DNA of 64,000 nt from Echinarachnius parma (Eukaryota; Echinodermata; Echinoidea; Clypeasteroida; Echinarachniidae): the NCBI GenBank assembly GCA_037951105.1, contig JBAMJV010003935.1, forward strand, positions 240,001 through 304,000, given 5' to 3'. A program made the position numbers and the translations under genes. The notes below the pieces were generated by a model. That model was given only the letters and a program-made list of their open reading frames with translations. It was not told where the DNA came from and made no database searches. Positions 4,086 through 63,402 of this stretch are shown here, in pieces; position 1 is the stretch's first letter; every line of letters starts with the position of its first letter.

Positions 4086-5897
4086 GGGCAATTCCAAGCA
4101 AACATTGACATAAGCACCCATTTTTCAGATTCATCGAATCATAACATATTTGGTATCAAATTAAAGCTTAAAGATTAAACTATTCAGAAATGCATTTTGT
4201 TAAAAAAAATGTTTGGCGTAAACTATTATTTCATAGGAATAAATTAGCATAAATTAATTTTCAATTATTTTCACAAAATATACTTGTAAATATTAAGCTT
4301 AAAAGAGCTGCAAAAATAGGTTTTCATAAAATTTTCTTTCAGTGTTGGTAAGAACATTACTTCAATTTATCAGATAAATATCTATTTCGGCATTTTCGCT
4401 CTTTGTTCTGCTTCAGTGACTGTTTCATTTATAGTCATCTATATGTCACGCTGTTACCCTAAAAACAGGTATTTTTAATATTTCTGGAAAAATATGAATG
4501 GGAATGAAATTATTTTTTGTTTCTTCTTCATTCACCCATAGGGCTATATTATGGATGCTAAATAGCAGCATTATCTTTTACCACTAATTAATCTAAGCAA
4601 TATCAATTTGGTCACGCTGTTACTTTTTGGGTAACAGCGTGACGCAACCTACTTTTTTTTTGCAATATCTCAAGAATCGTTGGATGGATTCTGTTCAAAC
4701 TTTGTACAAGACATGTATTCAGAGGTATGGATTATCTGATACATTTTGGGGCCATGAGGTCAAAGGTCAAAGGTCACAGCTAATTAATATGCAAAAAATA
4801 TATATTATTCTCAACATATTTCAAGAATCCTTGAAGGATGACATGATAATTAATACTGGTATGCGTTCAGTGAAGTAGATGACCTGATTATAGAATTTGG
4901 TCATGGGGTCAAAGGTCAACAGGTCAAATTATTGTAGTTTATTTTTTATCTCACAAAAAAATGCCAGAATTAATGTTAGAAAGAGTACTGTAGATAAAAG
5001 AAAATTCTATGAAAATGTTTGGAGCACAGGTCAAAGGTCACTCGGATAATTACCAATTCAAACACAAAAACTTACTGACATTGAAATCATGTTACATGAA
5101 ACAAATCACTTGTAGATATGCACTGTGCCACATAAAATTAAACATTTGTATGCTAATTTGAGAAATAAGGTCAAAGGTCAGATGTTAAAGGTCTAATATT
5201 TCATTGTTACAATTAAGTTTGTATTTTGGGTTTGATATTTGATGGTTCCTCAAACTAAATTCTGAAAAAGATAAGAATTACAGTTTTGTCCAAAAACATT
5301 TTTGATCAATAGAGGGCGCTAGGCTGCAAATTTGTGTCATGCGAACCATCATTTCAGAGCATCTGGGTTATATTACCCATTCATCTAGTTCTGTATAGAT
5401 TCTGGATGACTACATCAAAATTATATAATCTTATTCATCTCATCAATATCTCCCATATATATAACATGTACAATTCAGAGGTCACGCTGTTACCGTCACG
5501 CTGTTACCGTGCACAGATACGTTTATGATATCATATTTACTATGAACATTGGATTTTTTCTACATTTTTATTTGGATGTTCTAGCTTGATGTCTAGTACA
5601 AAGAATCAATGTGACAAAATTGCAAAATGTTCCTGTAGTTCACAGAGTTTGCTTAGTTTCTTACCATGTAAGAAACCCATGTCTTTTTGCCGTCACGCTG
5701 TTACCGCAGATATTGATATTGATAATTCATAATTTAGTGGGAATTTTGATTTTCTTTCCTATTGTAAATAATTAGTAGAATAGTGGTAACAGATGCATAT
5801 CAAAATTTGGTTCTGGACATTTTTATTTTGTGAGTTATTTAGACTTTCACCGTGAGAAACACCCTCCTACCGTCACGCTGTTACCTTGGAATTGCCC
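4086..5897. mobile_element. GGGCAATTCC-family element 1 (non-autonomous)
   Basis: Starts GGGCAATTCCAAGCAAAC and ends CTTGGAATTGCCC. It is flanked by the perfect 4-bp target duplication ATCT (4082-4085, 5898-5901). It holds seven exact copies of GTCACGCTGTTAC: 4445, 4611, 4631 (inverted), 5481, 5495, 5692 and 5872. The pair at 4611/4631 forms a hairpin with a 7-nt loop. It is a diverged paralogue of 57692-59704 and lacks about 200 bp present there after its hairpin. No transposase is encoded. A 4-bp target is used by several DNA transposon groups (Chapaev, Sola, Ginger); the superfamily cannot be set from this. Confidence 0.9.
4757..5180 (+). promoter_or_regulatory. Clustered AGGTCA direct repeats (DR1-like) inside element 1
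   Basis: AGGTCA half-sites spaced by one base occur at 4757-4776 (three in a row), about 4906-4926, 5028-5040 and 5168-5180. One-base-spaced AGGTCA repeats are the classic target of RXR, HNF4 and COUP-TF nuclear receptors. All four clusters are kept in the paralogue. Activity is inferred only. Confidence 0.5.
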
Positions 5898-10384: not shown

Positions 10385-13300
10385 GGGCAATTCCACCATA
10401 ACGGAATTACATTCAGAGACGTTTTTTGCTCATTATTTCATTCCCTGCGCAATATTCTGATGACTTAAGTAAATTTTGATACTTATGTAAGTTGCACGGG
10501 TAACCAGGCTACAACATGATAGGGAAATGGTTTTATATCTTCCATGTGTTGTTGCACACTAGACCAATATGTGTGACCGTAACGGAATTACCGGAGAATG
10601 GAGTTTTTTTTTTGCTACAAGTTTGCATTGAGTTTCTCTGAAATATAAGACACTTTGAAACTGATTTTATGTATTTTGTCTATCTTGATAATGTCAACTT
10701 CATTTTGGAACAAGTACGTGCATAAACAACACAATGATAAGTTCACAAATTCACTTTTTTGAAAAAAGACCACTGTAACGGAATTACACAAATTTGTAAC
10801 GGAATTACATCTCTGAAAGTTACAAGGAAAACTCAATTATTTTGCACTCAACTTTTCTTACATGCTAATGCAAACATCAAGGCTATCTAGCACTTGAATA
10901 TAAACCATAATTTGACATATCTGTAAATCAATTTTTGAACTTGTTATGTGTAAAACAAATGAAAATATGGCCAAAATACAAATAAGAGTGAAATTTGAAA
11001 AAAATATTGCTAAACTCCAGCTTTATTTCGGTTTATTTTCAGCTTCATATTAGTAGGCAAGAAATTAAAAAGGATTGCATCAATTAAATGAAAGAAAAAT
11101 CCTAGAAACTATGTCCACTAGTGTGTAACGGAATTACACAACTTGAGCAGTGGGATCAACTTTTCCACAAATCGGTACATGAACAACAACAAATTCACAT
11201 TTTAGCTTCAATACTTTTCAAAAATCAATAATTTGACAATAATAACCATATTTGAAGTAAAAAATAGCAACATTTTTTAATTTTTCCTTTACTTCAAGAA
11301 AAATGGTTAAATTGTGAAAAAACCCAAAGTAAAAAAAAAAAAAAAGTACCTACATTATGTGACATGCTAAAGAACTGCACATCATCAATATCAAGAAACA
11401 TTTAAACAATTTAAAATCACAAACGGGGCAAATAATTCAACTTTCAATGCTATAAAGCCTTGTAAACTTCCTGAATATTGGAAATCTGTGTGAATGGAAA
11501 TGCATTGTGAATGGGCAATTCCACTGTTACAGAATGACATATAAGTGATTTTTAGCTCTGTTTTCTTAATCATATTTAAAATTCCTTTCACTTCCACAGT
11601 TTTTACAACTTTAATAACTGGCAGGGGTACTAGAGGTACAAATCTATAACACTGTAGCGTCAGGAGACCAAAATACAATCATAACGGAAAGGGGTCTTTT
11701 ATTCAACACTAACTTTGTAATGATTTTCTGCAAAAGCTACCACAAAAAATTCTTCATTGGTAATAAAAACTTATCATTTAAGTTACAAACTTGAATTTGG
11801 TACATCTTTTTTCCAGAAATGATCTATTTTAACCTCTGAAATTACCTTAAGACAAACGAATGTCACTGTAACGGAATTACGCCTGTGAAATCCACCCATG
11901 AATCCACCCATGAAAATGCAATTTCTTGGTTACATTTTTCTGCGTACAGTCTATAGTAAAGAATTTGTATGCATTGTTAAACAATGTATGCATTGTTAAA
12001 CTCTTACATAAGGACCAGAACAAGTCCTGAATTTATGTGTGTGCGTAACAGAATTACAAACAAATCGAGATTTGTTATATAAACTCTTGTTAATGTTATA
12101 TTCTAAAATTATTCTTTTAAAAATTCATCCTAAAGTGATCTTAATTTACTCTCAAATCAATTTAGAATGCGTTTTCATTCATTTCATGAAATACATGTAC
12201 GGATATAAACATGTATGATCCAAATACAAAAAGTTGGCATATAAAATTTAAAAATCGAATTGCAAAAAATGAAAGACACCTTTAGGAATTCCCATTTGAA
12301 AATGCAAATACTTTGTACATCTTCTTTGATCTGCATACAGAAGCACACTGAACACTCAATGAATTCTGACTTTATGATAATGAATCAAACATATCTTAGC
12401 CTGTATTATGTATAGTTTTGAATATCTTGAAGCCTATTCTGTATTTATGTTTGATTTTATATGCTTCAGTTTAATACAAATTTACATAATTAATGGTGAG
12501 TTATGAGCCCTTAACTGATCAATGATATTCAAATCTACATACAAAATTATTAATATTAAATCTCCTTGAAAGTTGAAGGTATGATTTATATCTTAAAATA
12601 CATCAATGTAAATTAATGTGAGAAAATAAATGTAGAACCAGTGTCATACTAATTACTGGATATTTTAAAATTTTTGTTATTGTTTTTGTTTTTCCCTATC
12701 TAAAGTACAAACATGAATCTGCTGCATCTTCATAATTTCAGTCAAGTGGGTCTTGCTGGAAACTAATTTAATGATAGAACATTATCATCTCTATTATGTT
12801 CGTGGAGAAATTAGAGAAATTATCTATCGTGTATCAATTTAGTTAAATCACCATTGATGCAATATGAAGCATGTGAGGTAATGAGTCAGATAAAGTAACA
12901 TTGTACAGTACATGTACTGTATGTATAATGACTTATTGTCTACGTATGGCTACAGTTCATGCTATTTAAAGGGTATTTCTACATTCAGAACAAGAAAACA
13001 ATTTATTTTCAGCAATATCATTCAATACCTTACAAACCATGTGCATGTAATTCCGTTACGTAACGGAATTACTAATACTGTTACGCCATTTTTGGAAAAA
13101 GTAGTGACATTATTTCAGAAAATTATGTTGGAAGTTCTTAGGACTATGGTGAAGGAAGAGAATTCACAATGACATGACTAAAGAACAAGTAATAAGATAT
13201 TGAGAAAAACTTAAATCGTTTTATCGTAACGGAATTACGATCAAATGTGCATAGATTAAAAAAAATTCTCAAAAAAATATGCAATGAAGTTACTGCCCAT

Positions 13301-13599
13301 GCTTTACAATTTGTGTTTGTTACAACATCGTATGGAAAATATGAGAAAATGAGCAGAAACAGTCATTGAATTCAAAGATTCACTTTATTTTCACAAAATG
13401 AAGCTGATTTATGAATAAAAGGTCATAAATTTCTGTTCAATTCAAGCAGAAATATTTGAAAAACCAATCGAGCTATATATACAAACGGTTTTCAGTTTCT
13501 TAAAATTCAAGTTTTCCTCTATTGATAACAGTTTGATTTAGGGAAGATTGCTCAACTTTGAGATGTGGTGTTTTTGCCTTCTCTCATACGGAATTGCCC
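10385..13599. mobile_element. GGGCAATTCC-family element 3 (non-autonomous, 3.2 kb)
   Basis: Starts GGGCAATTCC at 10385 and ends GGAATTGCCC at 13599. It is flanked by the perfect 4-bp duplication AGCA (10381-10384, 13600-13603). It carries its own 13-mer GTAACGGAATTAC exactly at 10579, 10775, 10796, 11125, 11868, 13047 (inverted), 13060 and 13226. Near matches lie at 10398, 11524, 12045 and in the right terminus. The pair 13047/13060 forms a 26-bp perfect palindrome. A second GGGCAATTCC at 11513 hints at a composite structure. No long reading frame is present, and its interior does not resemble elements 1 and 2. Confidence 0.88.
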
Positions 13600-32235: not shown

Positions 32236-33604
32236 TAAAATGGGAATTATCAAGTATGGAGGTCATGTATATTCTAGGCTACATTTTGGTGGTTGGTTTG
32301 TTTTATCAACAGATGTTTTAATTATATTAGATAGAAGGAGTATTTCACAAGACTAAACATGTACATACAAATATCTGTAATTCTTAATATTGGTGTAAAT
32401 TATATTTAACACCTTTTTTTTCATTTTTACAAACAATGTTATGTAATGTTAGACTATATATTAACCTATTGATTGAATATTTGGTGTAGTGGTTTTCCAA
32501 TTATAAATATGTATTGGTATTTTATCATCTAGGAGGGAGCAACAGTATGTAGTGTTTGGAGCAAACCCTTTGTACATATATGATAATGTATTCATTTTCG
32601 GTGACAGATATCCAAGAAATTGGATCAACCATGGTGTAAAATTCATGTCATTAATAATTAAGTAGCCTGTTTAAGATAGTTTGTTTTGTTGTAAGTAGAG
32701 GAGAGGGGTAAAGGTGAATTAACCATAGAGACAAACATCTAGAAGTTAGTTTTACTCTCCGGTAGTTCAGTTTAATAGTGGAATAGAAGTAGAAGGAGTA
32801 ATTTGTTAGCTTAGAATTGTACCACTAGATAGAAGTTATACATATTTCATGACTATGTATGAGCACATATTTCACAACTCTATTCATTGCACATTATGTG
32901 CCTCTGGTTTGAATATTTATGATTGCAGTAATTTTTCAGTCTAAATGCTATCCTTTCTTGTTCCTTTTCATAACATATTAAATTGTGTTTAATGTTTTAC
33001 ACTTATGGTTGTTGAATCAAGGCCATGATATCATATTAACACTCATTTTAAAAGTTAGCAATTCTGACCTACATTTATGGTAAATTGAATGCGAAAATAA
33101 ATATTTCATGATCAGAATATTAATAAATTTGAGATAGTGATTAGTTATATTTACAATTTAATACAAAAAAGTTTCAAAAATACATTTATGTTTTAACAAT
33201 GAATGTTCGGAAGCGAAATATTGAAAGAAATATATTGCAAGTTATAAAGCTTGAATTCTGATACTCTCATTATATAGACAATGATTATTTATAATAGTGC
33301 ATTTTTCTCTTTCAAATAAATACAATAGTTACAACTCTTCTACCCTACAGAATGAATTGCATTGTGGACAAAATATATATCTTCTCTCACATTGAAAAAT
33401 CAATTCAAGTTTATCTTAACCCATTGCCTGCTGGAACCTGTTGGGCCCTGTATTTAAACTCTATCCGGGGATTTCCAAATCAGGTAGGGAACAGTTTAAC
33501 AACATTTGTGGTTTTAATGAAGACAAACTCTAACAAACAATATTTCTTCTCTATCTTTTCCCCCACAAAAATCCCTCTCTTTCCCTACCGAATCCTTCTC
33601 ACAG
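32236..33604. other. Sequence upstream of the first CLIP coding exon
   Basis: AT-rich, ending in a pyrimidine-rich tract and the acceptor 'cttctcacag' (33595-33604). I see no CpG-rich promoter or convincing 5' exon here, so the transcription start of the long isoform is probably further upstream. Confidence 0.5.
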
Positions 33605-34110
33605 ATGCAGTGGCCAATTCAGCCAGAGCGGCCGGCATGCGACCGTCGGATGCCAACCAGCATGCAGACCGCACCGTCAAAACAGTCGGTACCAGTAACG
33701 GAAGCAGCGCTAGGTCCTCATCGGACGACTTCATCATCGGCGACAGAGTCATCGTCGGGGGCAACAAGCACGGCCACATCCAATTCCTCGGCGAGACGCA
33801 GTTCGCGAGCGGCGAGTGGGCTGGTGTCGTGCTTGACGACGTCATTGGGAAAAACGACGGTTCGGTCAATGGCGTACGATACTTCCAATGTGAGGCTAAG
33901 CGTGGGGTGTTCGCCCGGCCGGACAAGCTCGTGCGCGAGTCGGCGGGTCATGTGGACAGCCGGGCGGCAGTTGGCGGCATCGCAAGACATGTTCCGTCGA
34001 CACCGCGTATGGGCACGAAGGTGTCATCGCCGAGGAGTTCAATCTCGAAGCCGCCAGGATCCAAGCCGGGCTCAGTGTCAGAGGAGAAACAGGAACCCGT
34101 TGGGCTCAAG
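33605..34110 (+). CDS. CLIP-170-type protein, exon with first CAP-Gly domain
   Basis: Microtubule plus-end tracking protein of the CLIP family. CAP-Gly domains bind EB proteins and the EEY/F tails of alpha-tubulin. The exon starts after acceptor ctcacag and ends at donor AAG|GTAATT with phase 0. It enters in the second base of a codon, so an upstream exon exists. The likely start is the in-frame ATG at 33637. From there residues 1-34 are Ser-rich, the CAP-Gly lies at about 35-100 with [10 protein letters not shown] at 59-68 and the signature GKNDG at 71-75, and 101-158 is a basic Ser/Pro linker. The wording of the domain (GVVLDD, RPDKL) fits the first rather than the second CAP-Gly of CLIP-170. 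It is GC-richer than the introns. An open frame continuing upstream from 33352 is intronic read-through. Confidence 0.93.
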
Positions 34111-34936
34111 GTAATTATGAATGTGCTATTCGCATTCTTGATATTATCATTTAATAACATGACATGAAAAAGCCATAAGTTTTGTTTTTTCTTGTATATT
34201 TTTTAACGAGTCTCAGATTGGGGACTAGCTTTTGGTCCTAGCAGAATCTTATTCAGAGGCTAAATTACACTTTTTAACTTACATCTAGGAGAAATATGCA
34301 TGGTTTACTTAAATGACTCATCACAAGCATTTACTTGTATCAATAATCATGAATATTCCAATAGCTATATTTCTCCTCACTGGCGTCGATATTTGTTTTC
34401 ATTAGGGCGGGATGACACAATACAAGTAGGCTGTCTCTACCTTACTGAACAACCATATTCCTTTATAACAATTCAACGTTAATGTTTTGCAGTCATTAGG
34501 ATATCATAATATAAGTGAATCAATGTCTCTTTATAATGCTCTAGATGATTCCATTTAGATTACTGGTCATGCTTTGGGAAATGTGGTATACTCAATGCAG
34601 CGAGAGATTCCAAAATCAATAATTCACCGTTGCAGTATTCTAACACCCTAGTTGTGTCAGCTGTTAGGCTCTATGCATGGAGATTATTATTGTATTAATT
34701 ATCCAACTTGAATACAGGTCAGGTGTCGGGTAGTGCATTAGAAAATCAATGTTGCTTTTGAAAAAAAAAAACATTCTGTAAACATACATGATGCTTGCAC
34801 TATAATTCAGTTTGAACTGTTTGAGCTATTATAAGAGAAATAAATCTCAAAAGTTATTACTTTTTTCTTCTGCATTGGAGAACAAAAATTGTGACTAAAT
34901 TTCCCAGCATTAAATAATGTAATTTTGCTCTTACAG

Positions 34937-50727: not shown

Positions 50728-51776
50728 TAGAGGCACGGATTTTCCGCGATCGCGGAAAATCGCGGAAAATCGCGGAATTGACCATTTGAAACGGAAAATG
50801 AGTTCTCAAACGGAAAATCGCGGAAAACCTCTTTTTCCTCAAAAATTCATATTTTGTAGTAGAAAACTATCAGAAGAAAACAAATGACAAAAAAGTACAA
50901 GAAAGACGATGTCGAATGCAACTTACAACGACAAGAAATCCGCTGCGTTTATTATGACAGCCGATCTAGCGCGGTGCGGCGAGTACGGCATACGATCGAC
51001 GTCGTAGACTAGCTACCCCGGCGCGCCCCGGCCCCGCAGCTAGCTAGCTGCTATCAGTCAGAGCTAGCTGCGCCATACCATGTCACCCATGTAATACTGC
51101 ACATGATTCTCAAACGTTGACATCCAGTCCGCCCTCTATCGGTACAGCCCGCCATATCACTGGTTTACTTTGCGTGCAGGTTATGGGTCTCATTTCTTAC
51201 GCGAGATATCCATCCGCCGGGAATTGGGGAATTCCCCAATTCCCGGCGGATGGATATCTCGCGTAAGAAAAAAGACCCGATAAGCTGCACGGAAAGTATA
51301 CCAGTGAAGTGTTAGTGTTGACTTATTCGTGTCGTTGTACTGATATGATGTAAGCTTCAGTACACATGCAGGTACGTTCGAGGGGTTAGAAAATGTTCGA
51401 GATATAATCAGCGCACACGTGTGTATAACAATTACTTCCGCGTTCGTTCCGGGGTATATACTACGGCTTTGGTAATGGTACGGAATTCGATTACGACACG
51501 ACGTCACCACACGCTGATAGTGATACGTATGAAAGCTTGAATTGAAGTTGAAGCGAGAGAAAATCGGTAAGTTTTCACAATAAATACCTATATTATGATT
51601 TTACCATACTCATTGAATTTTGTATAGAGTTTGATGGTAAACGGAATTTGCAGTTTTTCACATGTACAACGTCTATGGCAAAACGGAATTTCCGTTTTTC
51701 AGGCAGGTAAAAACGGAATTCCCGATTTTCTGAAACGGAAAAGGCCTTTTTTTGAAACGGAAAATCCGTGCCTCTA
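50728..51776. mobile_element. hAT-like element with perfect 19-bp TIRs
   Basis: TIR TAGAGGCACGGATTTTCCG and its exact inverse at the right. Flanks GCATATTT / ACATATTT differ at one of eight bases, compatible with an 8-bp hAT target. Read from the outermost T, CATATT is perfectly repeated. The subterminal parts carry many CGGAAAATCGC or AAACGGAAAA motifs. The GC-rich centre has no recognisable transposase. Confidence 0.85.
51193..51270. repeat. 78-bp perfect palindrome inside the hAT-like element
   Basis: 39-bp arms, no spacer, centred between 51231 and 51232 (ggggaattcccc). Beyond the perfect part the arms go on with two mismatches to gggtct/agaccc, about 94 bp in all. Confidence 0.95.
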
Positions 51777-57691: not shown

Positions 57692-59704
57692 GGGCAATTC
57701 CAAGCAAACATTGACATAACCACTGATTTTTCAAATTCGTTGTACCATAACAAATTTGGTATCAAATGAAAGCTAAAAGATTGAACTTTCCAAAAATGTA
57801 TTTTGTTTTTGAAAAAAAAAATTGTAAACTATTATTTTATTGTTAATATATAGCATAAATTAATTTTCAGTTATTTTCACAAAACATTCAATTAAATATT
57901 AAGCATAAAAGAACTGCGAAAAGGAGTATTCATGAAATTTTATTTCAGTGTTGATAGGATCATTGCTTCAATTTTTCAGATAAATATCAATTTCGTCATT
58001 TTCGCTCTTCGTTCCGCTTCAGTGACTGTCTTATTTACAATCATTAATATGTCACGGCGTTACACTAAAAACATATATTTTTAATATTTCTGGAAAAATA
58101 TGAATGGGAATGAAATAATTTTTTGTTTTCTCTGTATTAGCCCATAGGGCTATAATATGCATGCTGAATAGCAGCATTATCTTTTACCACTTATTAATAT
58201 AATCAATATCAATTTGGTCACGGCGTTACGTTTTGTGTAACGCCGTGACGCTACCTACTGGATTCCCATTGACATAACACAGTAGACATAATCAAATAGT
58301 GTAAGATATTTTTTGTAGGTATGCTTGGGCATTGGTCATGCTATAATTATATGAATAGGGTCAGTTGATAATGTTTCCATCTCAAAGTTACCCGAGTCAT
58401 GTATGTGTATGGGTTGTATGTCCGTCTGTCTGTATGTGCATCTGTACATCAGTGTTCTTTTTTTTGCAATATCTCAAGAATCGTTGGATGGATTTCGTTC
58501 AAACTTTGTACAATCCATGTATTTTGAGGTACGAATTATTGGATATGATTTTGGTCCATGAGGTCAAAGGTCAAAGGTCACATAGCTAACAAATATGCAA
58601 AAATTATATTATTATCAAGATAGTTTGAGAATCCTTGAAGGATAACATGATAATAATACTGGTATGCGTCCAGTGAAGTATATGACCTGATTAGGGAATG
58701 GGGTCATGGGAGGTCATAGGTCAACAGGTCAAAATATTGTTGTTGTTTTTTGTTCTCACAATTAAGTTCCAGAATCAATGTAAGAAAGAGTACTGTAGGT
58801 AAAAGACAATTTTCTGAAACTGTTTGGGGCACAGGTCAAAGGTCACTCGGATAATTACCAATTCAAAAACAAACATTTACTAACTCTGAAATCATGTTAC
58901 ATGAAACAAATCACTTGCAAATATGCACTGTGCAGACCAAAAATTAAACATTTGTATGTTATTTTGAGAAACAAGGTCAAAGGTCAGATGTCAAAGGTCT
59001 CATATTTCATTGTTACATTTAAGTATGTATTTTGGTTTTAATATTTGATGGTTCCATTAACTAACTTCTGAAATAGATAAGAATTTCAATTATGTCCTAA
59101 AAGATTTTTTGATCAATAGAGGGCGCTGTGCTGCAAATTTGTGTCATGCGGATGATCATTTAATAGCATCTTGGTTATATCACCCATTCATCTAGTTCTT
59201 TATTGATTCTGGATCACTACATTAAAATTATATCATATTATTCATCTCTTTAATATCTCCCATATATATAACATGTACAATTCAGAGGTCACGGCGTTAC
59301 AGTCACGGCGTTACAGTGCATAGATACATTTATGATATCATATTTACTATGAGCATTGGATTTTTTCTACATTTTTATTTGGATGTTCTAGCTTTATGTC
59401 TAATACAAAGAATCAATATGACAAAAGTGCAAAATGTTCCTGTAGTTCACAGAGTTTACTTAGTTTCTTAGCATGTAAGAAACCCATGTCTTTTTGCCGT
59501 CACGGTGTTACGGCAGATATTGATATTCATAATTAATAATTTATTGGGAATTTTGGTTTTCTTGCCTATTGTAAATTATTGGTAGGATAGTGGTTACAGA
59601 TGCATATCAAAAGTTGGTTCTAGATATTTAGATTTTATGAGTTATTTGCACTTTCATTGTGAGAAACACCCTCTGACCGTCACGGCGTTTGCTTGGAATT
59701 GCCC
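57692..59704. mobile_element. GGGCAATTCC-family element 2 (non-autonomous, 2.0 kb)
   Basis: GGGCAATTCCAAGCAAAC at the left and GTTTGCTTGGAATTGCCC at the right (perfect inverse), flanked by TAAA (57688-57691, 59705-59708). Collinear with element 1 at roughly 13% mismatch by eye, plus about 200 bp absent there. Its motif is GTCACGGCGTTAC at 58051, 58217, 58237 (inverted), 59288 and 59302, with variants at 59499 (GTCACGGTGTTAC) and 59679. These seven places match the seven sites of element 1. It lies in a CLIP intron. No transposase. Confidence 0.92.
58561..58986 (+). promoter_or_regulatory. AGGTCA (DR1-like) clusters inside element 2
   Basis: Clusters at 58561-58580 (aggtcaaaggtcaaaggtca), 58711-58731, 58833-58845 and 58974-58986, in the same order and spacing as in element 1. 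Here they lie within the CLIP gene. Confidence 0.5.
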
Positions 59705-60854: not shown

Positions 60855-61725
60855 TTAATTCTCGACATAGTTACTCAATAAATGTAATTTCAATTTGCGT
60901 TTAAAAACAAAGACACTGACAGATCTAGTTACATCGATAGGAAGTGAGTTCCAAAACTTGGGACCAGTACAAGCCAGCGTCTTCAGAGCAAAAGCAGTTC
61001 TTACACGTGGAATATGAAGTGCAGTTGCCTGCCTTGTATTATAGCTATGAATTTGATTGTTCTTTCGAAATATTTGTACTAACGCATTTGGGAGAGTACC
61101 ATTTTCAAAACCATACATAATTGCGCCTAACTGTATAAAGTAAATGTCTTCAACCTTCAATAACTTATTACTGTAGAACAAAACATTAGTATGAGCACGA
61201 TAACTCGCATTAAAAACAACTCTAACCACCCTTTTTTGGGCAACAAAAATCTTATCTAATTGTGTTTTCAATGACTTCCCCCATGCCAGCACTCCATAAT
61301 TGAGATAAGGCAAAATTAAAGTAGAATACAAAATAAGCAAGATTTCTTGTGGGACAAAAGAACTTAATTTATAAATTACACCAGTATTTCTAGACACAAC
61401 TTTACAAATATTAGTACAATGAGATGCCCAAGACAGCTTCTCATCAATATGTAGCCCAAGAAACTTGGTGGAAGTTACTCTCACAACATTACCATCATCA
61501 AAAAGTACATTTCCAGGTACATCCTTTAGGGAGTTACTAAAAAACATATAGTTTGTCTTTTGAAGGTTCAAGGACAACTTATTTGCATGAATCCACAAAA
61601 TAACTTTCTTTAATTCAATATTAACTGTATCTAATAAAACTTTAGGGTTTTTATGAGAAAAAAATACACTTGAATCATCTGCAAAAAATATGAAAGATAG
61701 TATATCAGATGAAAGATAAAAATCA
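60855..61725 (-). pseudogene. LINE reverse transcriptase, C-terminal part
   Basis: Begins, after the Helitron, with DFYLSSDILSFIFFADDSSV. FADD is the catalytic block of the palm, here 12 residues into the fragment. It continues through the thumb region (TKFLGLHIDEKLSW) and a C-terminal part common in these LINEs (LPYLNYGVLAWG; SYNTRQ; GPKFWNSLP) to a stop at 60855. The frame is free of stops, so the element was young when interrupted. The in-frame residues beyond 61725 belong to the Helitron. Confidence 0.9.
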
Positions 61726-63402
61726 TCTATTATATTAATACGGTAAGCTTCAACCCCCCAAATGTGTCCCACTCGAGATATCCTCACCCCGAGAATTCGG
61801 CGACTCCCCGACCGTCGGGATCGAAGGATATACGTTTTGCGGAGGACAATAAGGTATTCCCGAGTCGCCCCCGCCCCGTGGTCGTCCTCCAGATCGAAGA
61901 AAAGGGAAAGTCAGCAATGCCGGTTGCTAAAGTTAAGGCGCCGAGCACTGACTAACGATTTATCGCCGCAACTTTGTTCGACGAATATAAAACAGAGTCG
62001 ATAAAACGAGTATTATATTGAGAAAGCCTTCTGAATTTTACACGTTGCAAAACTACCCAGGTTTTAAAAAATATCAATTTTTATATTAGGCGGATGGTAT
62101 GGTAATGATCGCTATTCCCGTTTGGCATCGTTTCTGCAAAGGCAGTAACGATAAAATGACGACAGCTTCAATTTAGCTGCGCTCGATAACACTCAGGTAG
62201 AAGGCTGTGCATTGTATTAAGCCACGGAGTCTTCTTAATCACCCCGCCGTAGCGGAGTTTGTTTGCATAGCTCACTGACCATCGACAATGGTCACTCTTT
62301 TGCTCATTCGCTCCATACACGATTATACAACCTCGCCAACTTGCGGTAAGATTATTGTATTATGCCAGTCGTGAATCAGTGGAAGCTACTACATTTGTAT
62401 TATACCAGAGAAGACGTCTGGGGGCCCGGGGGGGGGGGGGGGGGGGGGGGGTAGAATGGATGTGGGAGGTATCTGCTCATTTATTATGCAATACATGTAG
62501 GCATATAGACGGCTACTATTCCCTTCAAAGAACATTCATCATCGGGTTTGACAAGAATATGACAAAATATATATACGCCGAAGAATTTAGTTTGGATATG
62601 AAAAGCTTAGGGGACACGGGGTTATGTGTCATGCAGGCAATTGTGGTCGAGGGAGGGGGGGGGGGGGGGGTGGGGTGGAGCGACAAAGCTACTTTATTAG
62701 CAAGTACACGAGCATATTATATAGTGAACTGTATCTAATGTAATACATTGACCGGATGACATCGTTGGACGGGGCCCCGACGTGTTGTGGGGCGGGATTG
62801 AGTCGCCCGTGTTTATTTTGTCCTATACTATTTAAAGGGATAGTTGAGTATTGGTTAAACTTAACTTTAGTAATCAAAACCTGGACCATTACGGTACAAA
62901 ATAATAGTTAAAACTTCACCATGCTCGAAAAGTATACACAATTACAAAGGACTAAGTAAATCCTCTGTTATCATTCATAAAAAGTCGTTGCAACTCAAGA
63001 GGGCGCTCTCTAAAAGAGTGATTGGTTTTGACCATTTTCATACAAAAGTGTGCATTTAAAGTTTTGTTAAAATAATGATTCAATAGAGATTATCATCAAC
63101 AACCTTCCCCCAGTGAAGAATTTTGTAATACAAATATTGTTATGGTCTGGATATTTCATCCGTTTCTGAACCGATTTTGATCAAATAAAGTTTATTCTGT
63201 CATTAAAATTGTTTGTTCTTTCAAATTTGACAGTTAGTTCTTCCGTATCTTACAAACAATTATCAGGGGCACTTCGGGGAATACCAATACCAATACTACC
63301 TTTATGTGATGACTTTGGGAATAATAAAGTTTTAAAGTATCGCTATATCATCATCGCCTTTCTCTCACAAAAAAACCCGCGGATTTCCGCGGGTACAGCT
63401 AG
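61726..63402 (+). mobile_element. Non-autonomous Helitron, 1.68 kb
   Basis: 5' end TCTATTATATTAATACGG, 3' end hairpin CCCGCGG-ATTT-CCGCGGG (63376-63393) followed by TACAGCTAG. It lies between A (61725) and T (63403) with no target duplication: all Helitron hallmarks. The host LINE reads YIN|D across the site, giving the exact empty site. It holds poly-G at 62428-62451 and 62655-62670 and no Rep/helicase gene. Confidence 0.93.
61764..61955 (+). other. GC-rich coding-like fragment inside the Helitron
   Basis: An open frame of about 63 codons ending in TGA-like stop context, with text such as GSKDIRFAEDNKVFPSRPRP and VVVLQIEEKGKSAMPV, lies in a CpG-rich block unlike the rest of the element. Helitrons often pick up host exons, and IRFAE resembles a short docking motif, but I recognise no parent gene. 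The nominal start codon is not trusted. Confidence 0.3.

Follow-up and report, generated by a model that had tools for sequence, protein, structure and literature searches.

Dispersed site arrays of non-coding transposons in Echinarachnius parma may have been re-spelled in place

The short motifs to which VANC proteins bind in Arabidopsis vary from one VANDAL family to another, and the source papers propose that motifs and proteins coevolve through tandem repeats (PMC5735166, PMC10398659). The CACTA transposons of plants (En/Spm, Tgm, Tam1) combine conserved terminal inverted repeats (TIRs) with family-specific subterminal repeats, for which the accessible part of the source suggests coevolution with tnpA-like exons (PMC2613891). 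KolobokP solo repeats, according to the excerpted description, measure about 450 or 660 bp (PMC9587614) and are thus shorter than the elements considered here.

It is an old question how a binding protein acquires a new specificity if a whole set of sites has to change in step. Here, a window of 64,000 nucleotides (the whole stretch of DNA analyzed), part of the 1.2-Gb Echinarachnius parma assembly of 14790 contigs, offers a case in point. Two of its elements are non-coding cut-and-paste transposons of a high-copy group with 4-bp target duplications, and a third such element with its own site version, not part of the original prediction, lies in the same window.

4086..5897, minus strand: element 1, non-coding DNA transposon with the CT version of the site; right end at 5897, left end at 4086
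57692..59704, minus strand: element 2, GC version, collinear paralogue of element 1
10385..13599, plus strand: element 3, a relative whose right end is at 10385, with a third site version, GTAACGGAATTAC, arranged in the matching geometry

Element 1 measures 1812 bp and element 2 measures 2013 bp, and the two are 87.3% identical over 1809 aligned bases. Both begin with GGGCAATTCC and end with GGAATTGCCC, and this TIR is also present in element 3 and in the elements L091, L093, and GTG described below. The target duplications are ATCT in element 1, TAAA in element 2, and AGCA in element 3. Among copies with both TIRs, 50 of 52 are flanked by an exact 4-bp duplication (the exceptions are L045 and L076), and in these 52 copies the duplicated sequences are varied (ATCT, TAAA, AGCA, TACA, and others) with a weak TATA-like preference. 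The longest stop-to-stop frame is 93 aa in element 1 and 81 aa in element 2, with none above 95 aa in any of the three elements and none above 106 aa in the GTG element. By their TIRs, constant-length target duplications, and lack of long frames, elements 1, 2, and 3 are cut-and-paste (DDE-type), non-autonomous DNA transposons.

Other features of the window can be recorded here. The repeated GGTCAAAGGTCA, presumably DR1-like nuclear-receptor half-sites, occurs in element 1 (4758, 4907, 5029, and 5169) and element 2 (58562, 58834, and 58975) and is absent from element 3; plus-strand GGTCA is found 13 times in element 1 and 15 times in element 2, and TGACC once and twice, respectively. A near-perfect (96%) fold-back palindrome of 47 nt lacking a spacer lies at 51185-51278. 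Judged by eye, a frame at 33298-34167 contains a CAP-Gly-like stretch (CLIP type), and one at 60855-61910 on the minus strand is reverse-transcriptase-like.

The sites of the three elements are distributed as follows, with distances counted from the left end (LE) or right end (RE) of each element.

4445..4457, plus strand: element 1 site GTCACGCTGTTAC, LE 359
4611..4623, plus strand: element 1 site GTCACGCTGTTAC, LE 525
4631..4643, minus strand: element 1 site GTCACGCTGTTAC, LE 545, inverted partner
5481..5493, plus strand: element 1 site GTCACGCTGTTAC, RE 404
5495..5507, plus strand: element 1 site GTCACGCTGTTAC, RE 390
5692..5704, plus strand: element 1 site GTCACGCTGTTAC, RE 193
5872..5884, plus strand: element 1 site GTCACGCTGTTAC, RE 13, three bases inside the TIR core
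58051..58063, plus strand: element 2 site GTCACGGCGTTAC, LE 359
58217..58229, plus strand: element 2 site GTCACGGCGTTAC, LE 525
58237..58249, minus strand: element 2 site GTCACGGCGTTAC, LE 545, inverted partner
59288..59300, plus strand: element 2 site GTCACGGCGTTAC, RE 404
59302..59314, plus strand: element 2 site GTCACGGCGTTAC, RE 390
59499..59511, plus strand: element 2 site GTCACGGTGTTAC, RE 193, GGT variant
59679..59691, plus strand: element 2 site GTCACGGCGTTTG, RE 13, degenerate on the TIR side
10398..10410, plus strand: element 3 site ATAACGGAATTAC, RE 13
10579..10591, plus strand: element 3 site, RE 194
10775..10787, plus strand: element 3 site, RE 390
10796..10808, plus strand: element 3 site, RE 411
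11125..11137, plus strand: element 3 internal site
11526..11538, plus strand: element 3 internal degenerate site GTTACAGAATGAC, three bases after an internal TIR-like GGGCAATTCC (11513)
11868..11880, plus strand: element 3 internal site
12045..12057, plus strand: element 3 internal site GTAACAGAATTAC
13047..13059, minus strand: element 3 site, LE 540, inverted partner
13060..13072, plus strand: element 3 site, LE 527
13226..13238, plus strand: element 3 site, LE 361

The original prediction had described elements 1 and 2 as collinear paralogues with seven sites each at matching places, and both elements, all fourteen sites, and their positions and counts proved correct. In element 3, the segment 11513-11538 repeats the arrangement of a true right end and may be what is left of a nested or composite element.

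The abundance of the group extends well beyond the window. The pattern GTCACGNNGTTAC occurs 6832 times genome-wide versus 589 times for the reversed pattern, and with up to 2 mismatches it has 33 matches in the window (mean 6.76 and maximum 15 in 100 shuffles). A motif-free anchor taken from mid-element sequence finds 1049 places in the genome at up to 3 mismatches, and a 188-bp comparison with element 1 gave 40 scored matches (of 1162 candidates), all 100% identical. For alignment, 70 anchor copies (L011-L080; L001-L010 were left out) were combined with elements 1 and 2 into 72 rows, 60 with all seven sites free of gaps and 12 partial; because the 100 anchor places listed of the 1049 all match the anchor exactly, this sample is biased to well-kept copies. 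Flanks are common to L011 and L070 and likewise to L018 and L050, so that each pair may be a single insertion present on two contigs.

Tabulating the central bases over these copies reveals how sharply the site versions are partitioned. The majority version of their sites splits the 72 rows into 20 of the CT (element 1) type and 52 of the GC (element 2) type, with no copy mixing CT and GC in any of the 72 rows, 12 of them partial. Readable core cells are CT in 126 of 128 cases in the CT rows (the remainder are one CA and one CC) and GC in 315 of 347 in the GC rows, with 29 GT and one each of AC, GA, and GG. Between the two subfamily consensuses, core columns 6 and 7 both differ at all seven sites (14 of 14 cells), the other eleven motif columns have changed in only 2 of 77 cells, both in the terminal GC-type site, and 196 of 1718 columns differ outside the motif (11.4%). 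The comparison of consensus columns therefore places the subfamily difference in the middle of the site and in the base beside GTTAC, which lies beyond the 13-mer and changes from C/T in the element 1 type to A/G in the element 2 type at six of the seven sites. Since this outside base switches too, the unit is one of 14 bp rather than 13. The terminal site, degenerate in element 2, is degenerate in its subfamily consensus as well. Mean non-motif distances are 2.3% and 2.1% within the two subfamilies and 12.1% between them.

These comparisons uphold the original prediction in its central observation, that the same two adjacent bases changed at dispersed sites, and reveal the covariation across copies, in excess of the flanking divergence, that it had proposed to look for. 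It had also judged independent drift very unlikely, and a simple rate formula agrees, putting the chance repetition of the two specific changes at six further sites at about 1e-17. Its reading of one site as half-switched fared less well. At 59499 (site 6), GT is found in 18 of the 50 copies having GC or GT there. On a FastTree tree built from non-motif columns, which is displayed without support values and has poor resolution, GC occupies this site in the deepest GC-type branches (L061, L075, L022, L060, L038, L018, L050, and L064), and GT appears in at least two later branches, that of L011 and L070 and others scattered through a large unresolved group. The change from GGCG to GGTG is a CpG transition. 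From these patterns, GT at site 6 looks like recurrent CpG-to-TpG decay and not a stepping stone, so that an intermediate in the switch is disfavored.

How widely such versions occur is illustrated by elements from elsewhere in the genome. A pattern in which the TIR is followed, after three unspecified bases, by a loosely defined site is found at 1275 places (reversed control, 0), and its form with 4 bases between TIR and site has 0 matches, which suggests a strict 3-base spacing in ends of the element 1 type. The same pattern gave one isolated match in viral contigs, with no array, and this was read as chance. Further families were read from among 100 listed of the 1275 places, where different TIR variants combined with different site versions also occur.

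L091: 1783 bp, target duplication TGTA; ten sites, nine of them exact GTAACACCGTGAC, the terminal one ATAACACCGTGAC (G-ATAAC...)
L093: relative of element 3, target duplication AACG
GTG family element: contig C49, 4526 bp, target duplication ATAA; eight exact GTAACGGAATTAC sites, a terminal site, and a loose match

By sequence comparison, five families carry versions of one 14-bp site, which read from the right end is [R/Y]GTAAC-NNN-RTKAC: R-GTAACAGCGTGAC in the element 1 family, Y-GTAACGCCGTGAC in that of element 2, Y-GTAACACCGTGAC in L091, Y-GTAACGGAATTAC in that of element 3, and G-GTAACGGAATTAC in GTG. The base before GTAAC is R in element 1 (five of its six non-terminal sites have G, the sixth A), Y in element 2, L091, and element 3, and G in eight of nine non-terminal rows of the GTG family, the ninth being the loose match. 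Element 3 and GTG thus have an identical 13-mer and differ in the preceding base throughout their arrays. The versions of element 2 and L091 are not sharply apart, because their single difference, GCC versus ACC, is identical to the CpG-decay step.

The geometry of these arrays is shared to within a few bases. Right-end sites start at 13, 193, 390, and 404 in element 1, L091, and element 2 (the first of element 2 is degenerate), at 13, 194, 390, and 411 in element 3 and L093, and at 13, 191, 391, and 411 in GTG, giving matching distances over the families of 13, 191-194, 390/391, and 404-411. At the left end, a site at 359-361 is present in all six elements (elements 1, 2, and 3, L091, L093, and GTG), and all of these except GTG also have a site at 525-527 whose inverted partner lies at 538-547; GTG has sites at 514, 530, and 547, each inverted. 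Additional internal sites occur in L091, element 3, L093, and GTG. The intervening sequence is far more variable. With 200 single-base shuffles per comparison, the spacers divide the families into element 1, element 2, and L091 on one side and element 3 and GTG on the other, with z values of 3.0 to 32 within groups and of -0.8 to 4.1 in 24 comparisons between groups (17 at or below 2). As these ranges overlap slightly, the two groups may be remotely homologous. On these alignments, the site positions have outlasted most of the sequence between them; because the geometry is also inherited, the families are not fully independent tests.

An order of change can be proposed from L091, which is 52-53% identical to elements 1 and 2. 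With it as the sole outgroup, the simplest history would have Y-ACC as the ancestral version, a change from A to G in element 2, and changes from C to G and from Y to R in element 1; the A-to-G change is the weakest of these steps because it involves the same base as the CpG variant. Between about 330 and 1151, L091 also contains tandem units, each about 225 bp long and 79-86% alike, that bear extra sites. Duplication has thus added some sites in this element, in an expansion resembling that described for VANDAL motifs.

Uniformity within arrays can be assessed more broadly from adjacent sites, which occur as pairs at 2156 places in the genome (control, 9). Among 100 listed pairs, judged by eye, the NNN is identical in both members in 92 (10 pairs are AGC/AGC), and 7 differ by one transition (3 GGA/AGA, 2 GCC/ACC, and 2 GCC/GCT). 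The remaining pair (C124:198488-198514), GTAACGGCGTGAC / GTAACACTGTGAC, fits no described version and may belong to another family. None of these 100 pairs combines AGC with GCC or GGA with a GTGAC-type site. Genome-wide, exact pairs of the two adjacent right-end sites include no AGC/GCC in either order, no RCC followed by AGC, and seven AGC followed by RCC, every one of them AGC/ACC. One of these seven, C1435, belongs to the element 1 type and deviates at one of the six sites read; of the five sites outside the pair, four were read and all are of the element 1 type. A single off-version site may therefore be tolerated in an array and, if the seven pairs are separate insertions, arrays with one site off would still be mobile. 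Searches for versions whose central N is A or T yielded 3 pairs versus 8 in the reversed control, none credible.

The search for a protein partner and for membership in a known class has so far produced mainly negative results. In none of the elements read was a transposase or other binding protein found; ten of 20 listed open frames of at least 85 aa (in L090, L091, L092, L094, L016, L081, and element 3) were scanned, with none above the Pfam cut-off, so the DNA-binding protein that the original prediction had proposed to seek in full-length relatives did not appear in the elements and frames examined. A DUF6589-type transposase, a kind linked to Academ, has 72 matches genome-wide. The top locus, L096, is the one that was read, and since it has no such TIR and no such site, this candidate was rejected at that locus. 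Several of the matches have equal scores and equal long frames (1767 aa), and they are likely another transposon group.

As to class, CACTA (CAC) termini are absent, the termini being GGGCAATTCC, and a subterminal repeated motif is present with arrays at both ends. VANDAL/MULE elements have target duplications of 8-9 bp; here these are of 4 bp, no VANC or MULE protein was found in the frames scanned, and the sites are mostly single and outside tandem repeats, except in the tandem units of L091. The TTAA duplication of Kolobok and piggyBac is replaced by varied 4-mers, and long terminal direct repeats of the kind that accompany the Kolobok transposase and His-Me nuclease in KolobokP are absent from the 20 largest repeat families listed for the window. 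The 4-bp target duplication agrees with Sola1/Sola2.

Taken together, the arrays are reasonably well explained as predicted 14-bp binding sites, held at fixed geometry, for one transposition protein whose recognition changed repeatedly, and this is the reading favored here. One transposon-encoded DNA-binding protein, either the transposase itself or an accessory factor belonging to the same system, would bind all sites of an element, and this binding would pair the two unequal ends and permit excision. What this protein reads at the middle bases and at the base preceding GTAAC would have changed several times, and every site would have followed each time, since arrays that no longer fitted the protein would stop transposing. 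The fixed distances from both ends, the site lying three bases inside the TIR core, and the lack of genes in the elements fit sites for end pairing, and the uniform version within each family fits one protein per version; the protein is likely the transposase. Because elements 1 and 2 are collinear and non-coding throughout, their common ancestor was probably non-coding already, and the protein that their lineage followed was probably encoded at another place in the genome. The fuller proposal, that non-coding transposons repeatedly re-spelled a seven-site array in place and under fixed geometry by following the specificity of such a protein, is more tentative and falls somewhat short of being probable.

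A different role for the sites is conceivable. They might be bound by a transposon-encoded anti-silencing protein like VANC, in which case the arrays would follow a regulator instead of the transpososome. VANC21 binds YAGTATTAY and VANC6 targets AGTTGTCC/AGTTGTAC, motif sets proposed, in the parts of the papers at hand, to coevolve with their proteins (PMC5735166, PMC10398659). The site-bearing tandem units of L091 would suit such a role, as would the CpGs of the sites, which hold one or two each in element 1, element 2, and L091, the elements being CpG-poor elsewhere (observed/expected outside sites of 0.30-0.46 in these and element 3, and 0.55 in GTG). VANDAL motifs, however, lie in expanding and contracting tandem repeats, whereas the sites here are mostly single, keep their positions although the spacers align poorly or not at all, and in one case lie just 3 bases from the TIR core, leaving an anti-silencing role unlikely, if the most serious of the alternatives. 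Transposons can also recruit host factors, and full arrays in non-coding copies without a protein of their own would agree with sites bound by such a factor, in transposition or repression, with versions that follow its change or escape from it. Yet several exact versions coexist in young copies, identical among the 40 scored matches to element 1 and about 2% apart in the element 2 type, which one host factor could not easily select; a family of host factors would be required, and this explanation is accordingly improbable.

Processes that leave specificity unchanged fare worse still. Ectopic gene conversion or recombination could homogenize the sites of each element and so account for the uniformity of versions, and the left flanks of the L091 sites resemble one another more (40% identity; C occupies -2 in nine of nine), with tandem units carrying extra sites. 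The 13-base blocks that flank the sites of elements 1 and 2, on the other hand, are 24-29% identical against a composition expectation of 28%, a chance similarity that continues up to the edge of the motif and makes conversion very unlikely; the sites are also mostly far apart and in both orientations, and tracts of about 14 bp lying exactly on the motif would be needed at six places. That the families are simply old, with motif differences arising from ordinary drift and CpG decay, is barely credible: single GGC/GGT differences do behave as CpG decay, but all 14 consensus core cells changed alike, against 11.4% elsewhere. Conversion of the array, which the original prediction had kept as an alternative, is consequently set aside, and its half-switched site is not favored as an intermediate. 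Overall its interpretation is partly supported. The core proposal, that one protein binds all sites and the array switched with it, is well supported by the lack of CT/GC mixtures among the 72 copies, by the absence of AGC/GCC from adjacent right-end pairs, by five uniform families, and by the chance-level flanks in elements 1 and 2; AGC/ACC is the one mixed class that turned up.

If the fuller proposal is true, this group would be a natural record of the evolution of protein-DNA specificity, with several orthogonal transposase/site pairs in one genome. That genome offers several versions at matching positions, more than 1000 anchor places, an outgroup family, and a few copies with one site off, so that it allows direct tests of the sequence in which the changes arose and of how far mixed arrays are tolerated. 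Should the partner proteins be found, they might yield orthogonal pairs of transposase and transposon end.

Comparison with known systems, made from the available parts of the sources cited, places these elements among several partial likenesses. With Galileo of the P superfamily they share multiple sites per end, there several THAP sites in long TIRs bound by one transposase domain (PMC3688188), but the TIR here is short, the sites are dispersed, and no THAP protein was found in the frames scanned. Sola2 likewise has a 4-bp AT-rich target duplication and short TIRs (PMC3627910), although the preference here is weakly TATA-like and that of Sola2 is AWWT. KolobokP resembles them in a short TIR, RR...YY termini, and 3-5-bp duplications without strong target preference (PMC9587614), and differs in the long terminal direct repeats (about 450 or 660 bp) that enclose its coding region, which have no counterpart among the largest repeat families listed for the window. 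Plant CACTA elements with TNPA or TNP1 are similar in their asymmetric subterminal arrays, conserved TIR, and motif varying between families within a species (PMC2613891), and differ in a target duplication of 3 bp and in their termini; the sites here are few, occupy conserved positions that reach about 545 bp inward, and show a two-base switch between paralogues that are 87% identical. Closest in principle are VANDAL and VANC, where related families have different short motifs in non-coding DNA that are proposed to coevolve with the binding protein (PMC5735166, PMC10398659), except that motif change there involves tandem-repeat turnover, and mostly single sites are re-lettered here in situ at fixed distances from the ends. 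In the open-licence literature searched, so far as its accessible text goes, no report of in-place switching of site arrays was found; judged by title and the start of the abstract, none of the papers listed on concerted evolution of transposase sites deals with this, and none of the literature matches listed for the GGGCAATTCC terminus was related. The principle is thus common to VANDAL/VANC and CACTA, and it is the in-place re-spelling of mostly single sites under fixed geometry that, by this comparison, appears to be new.
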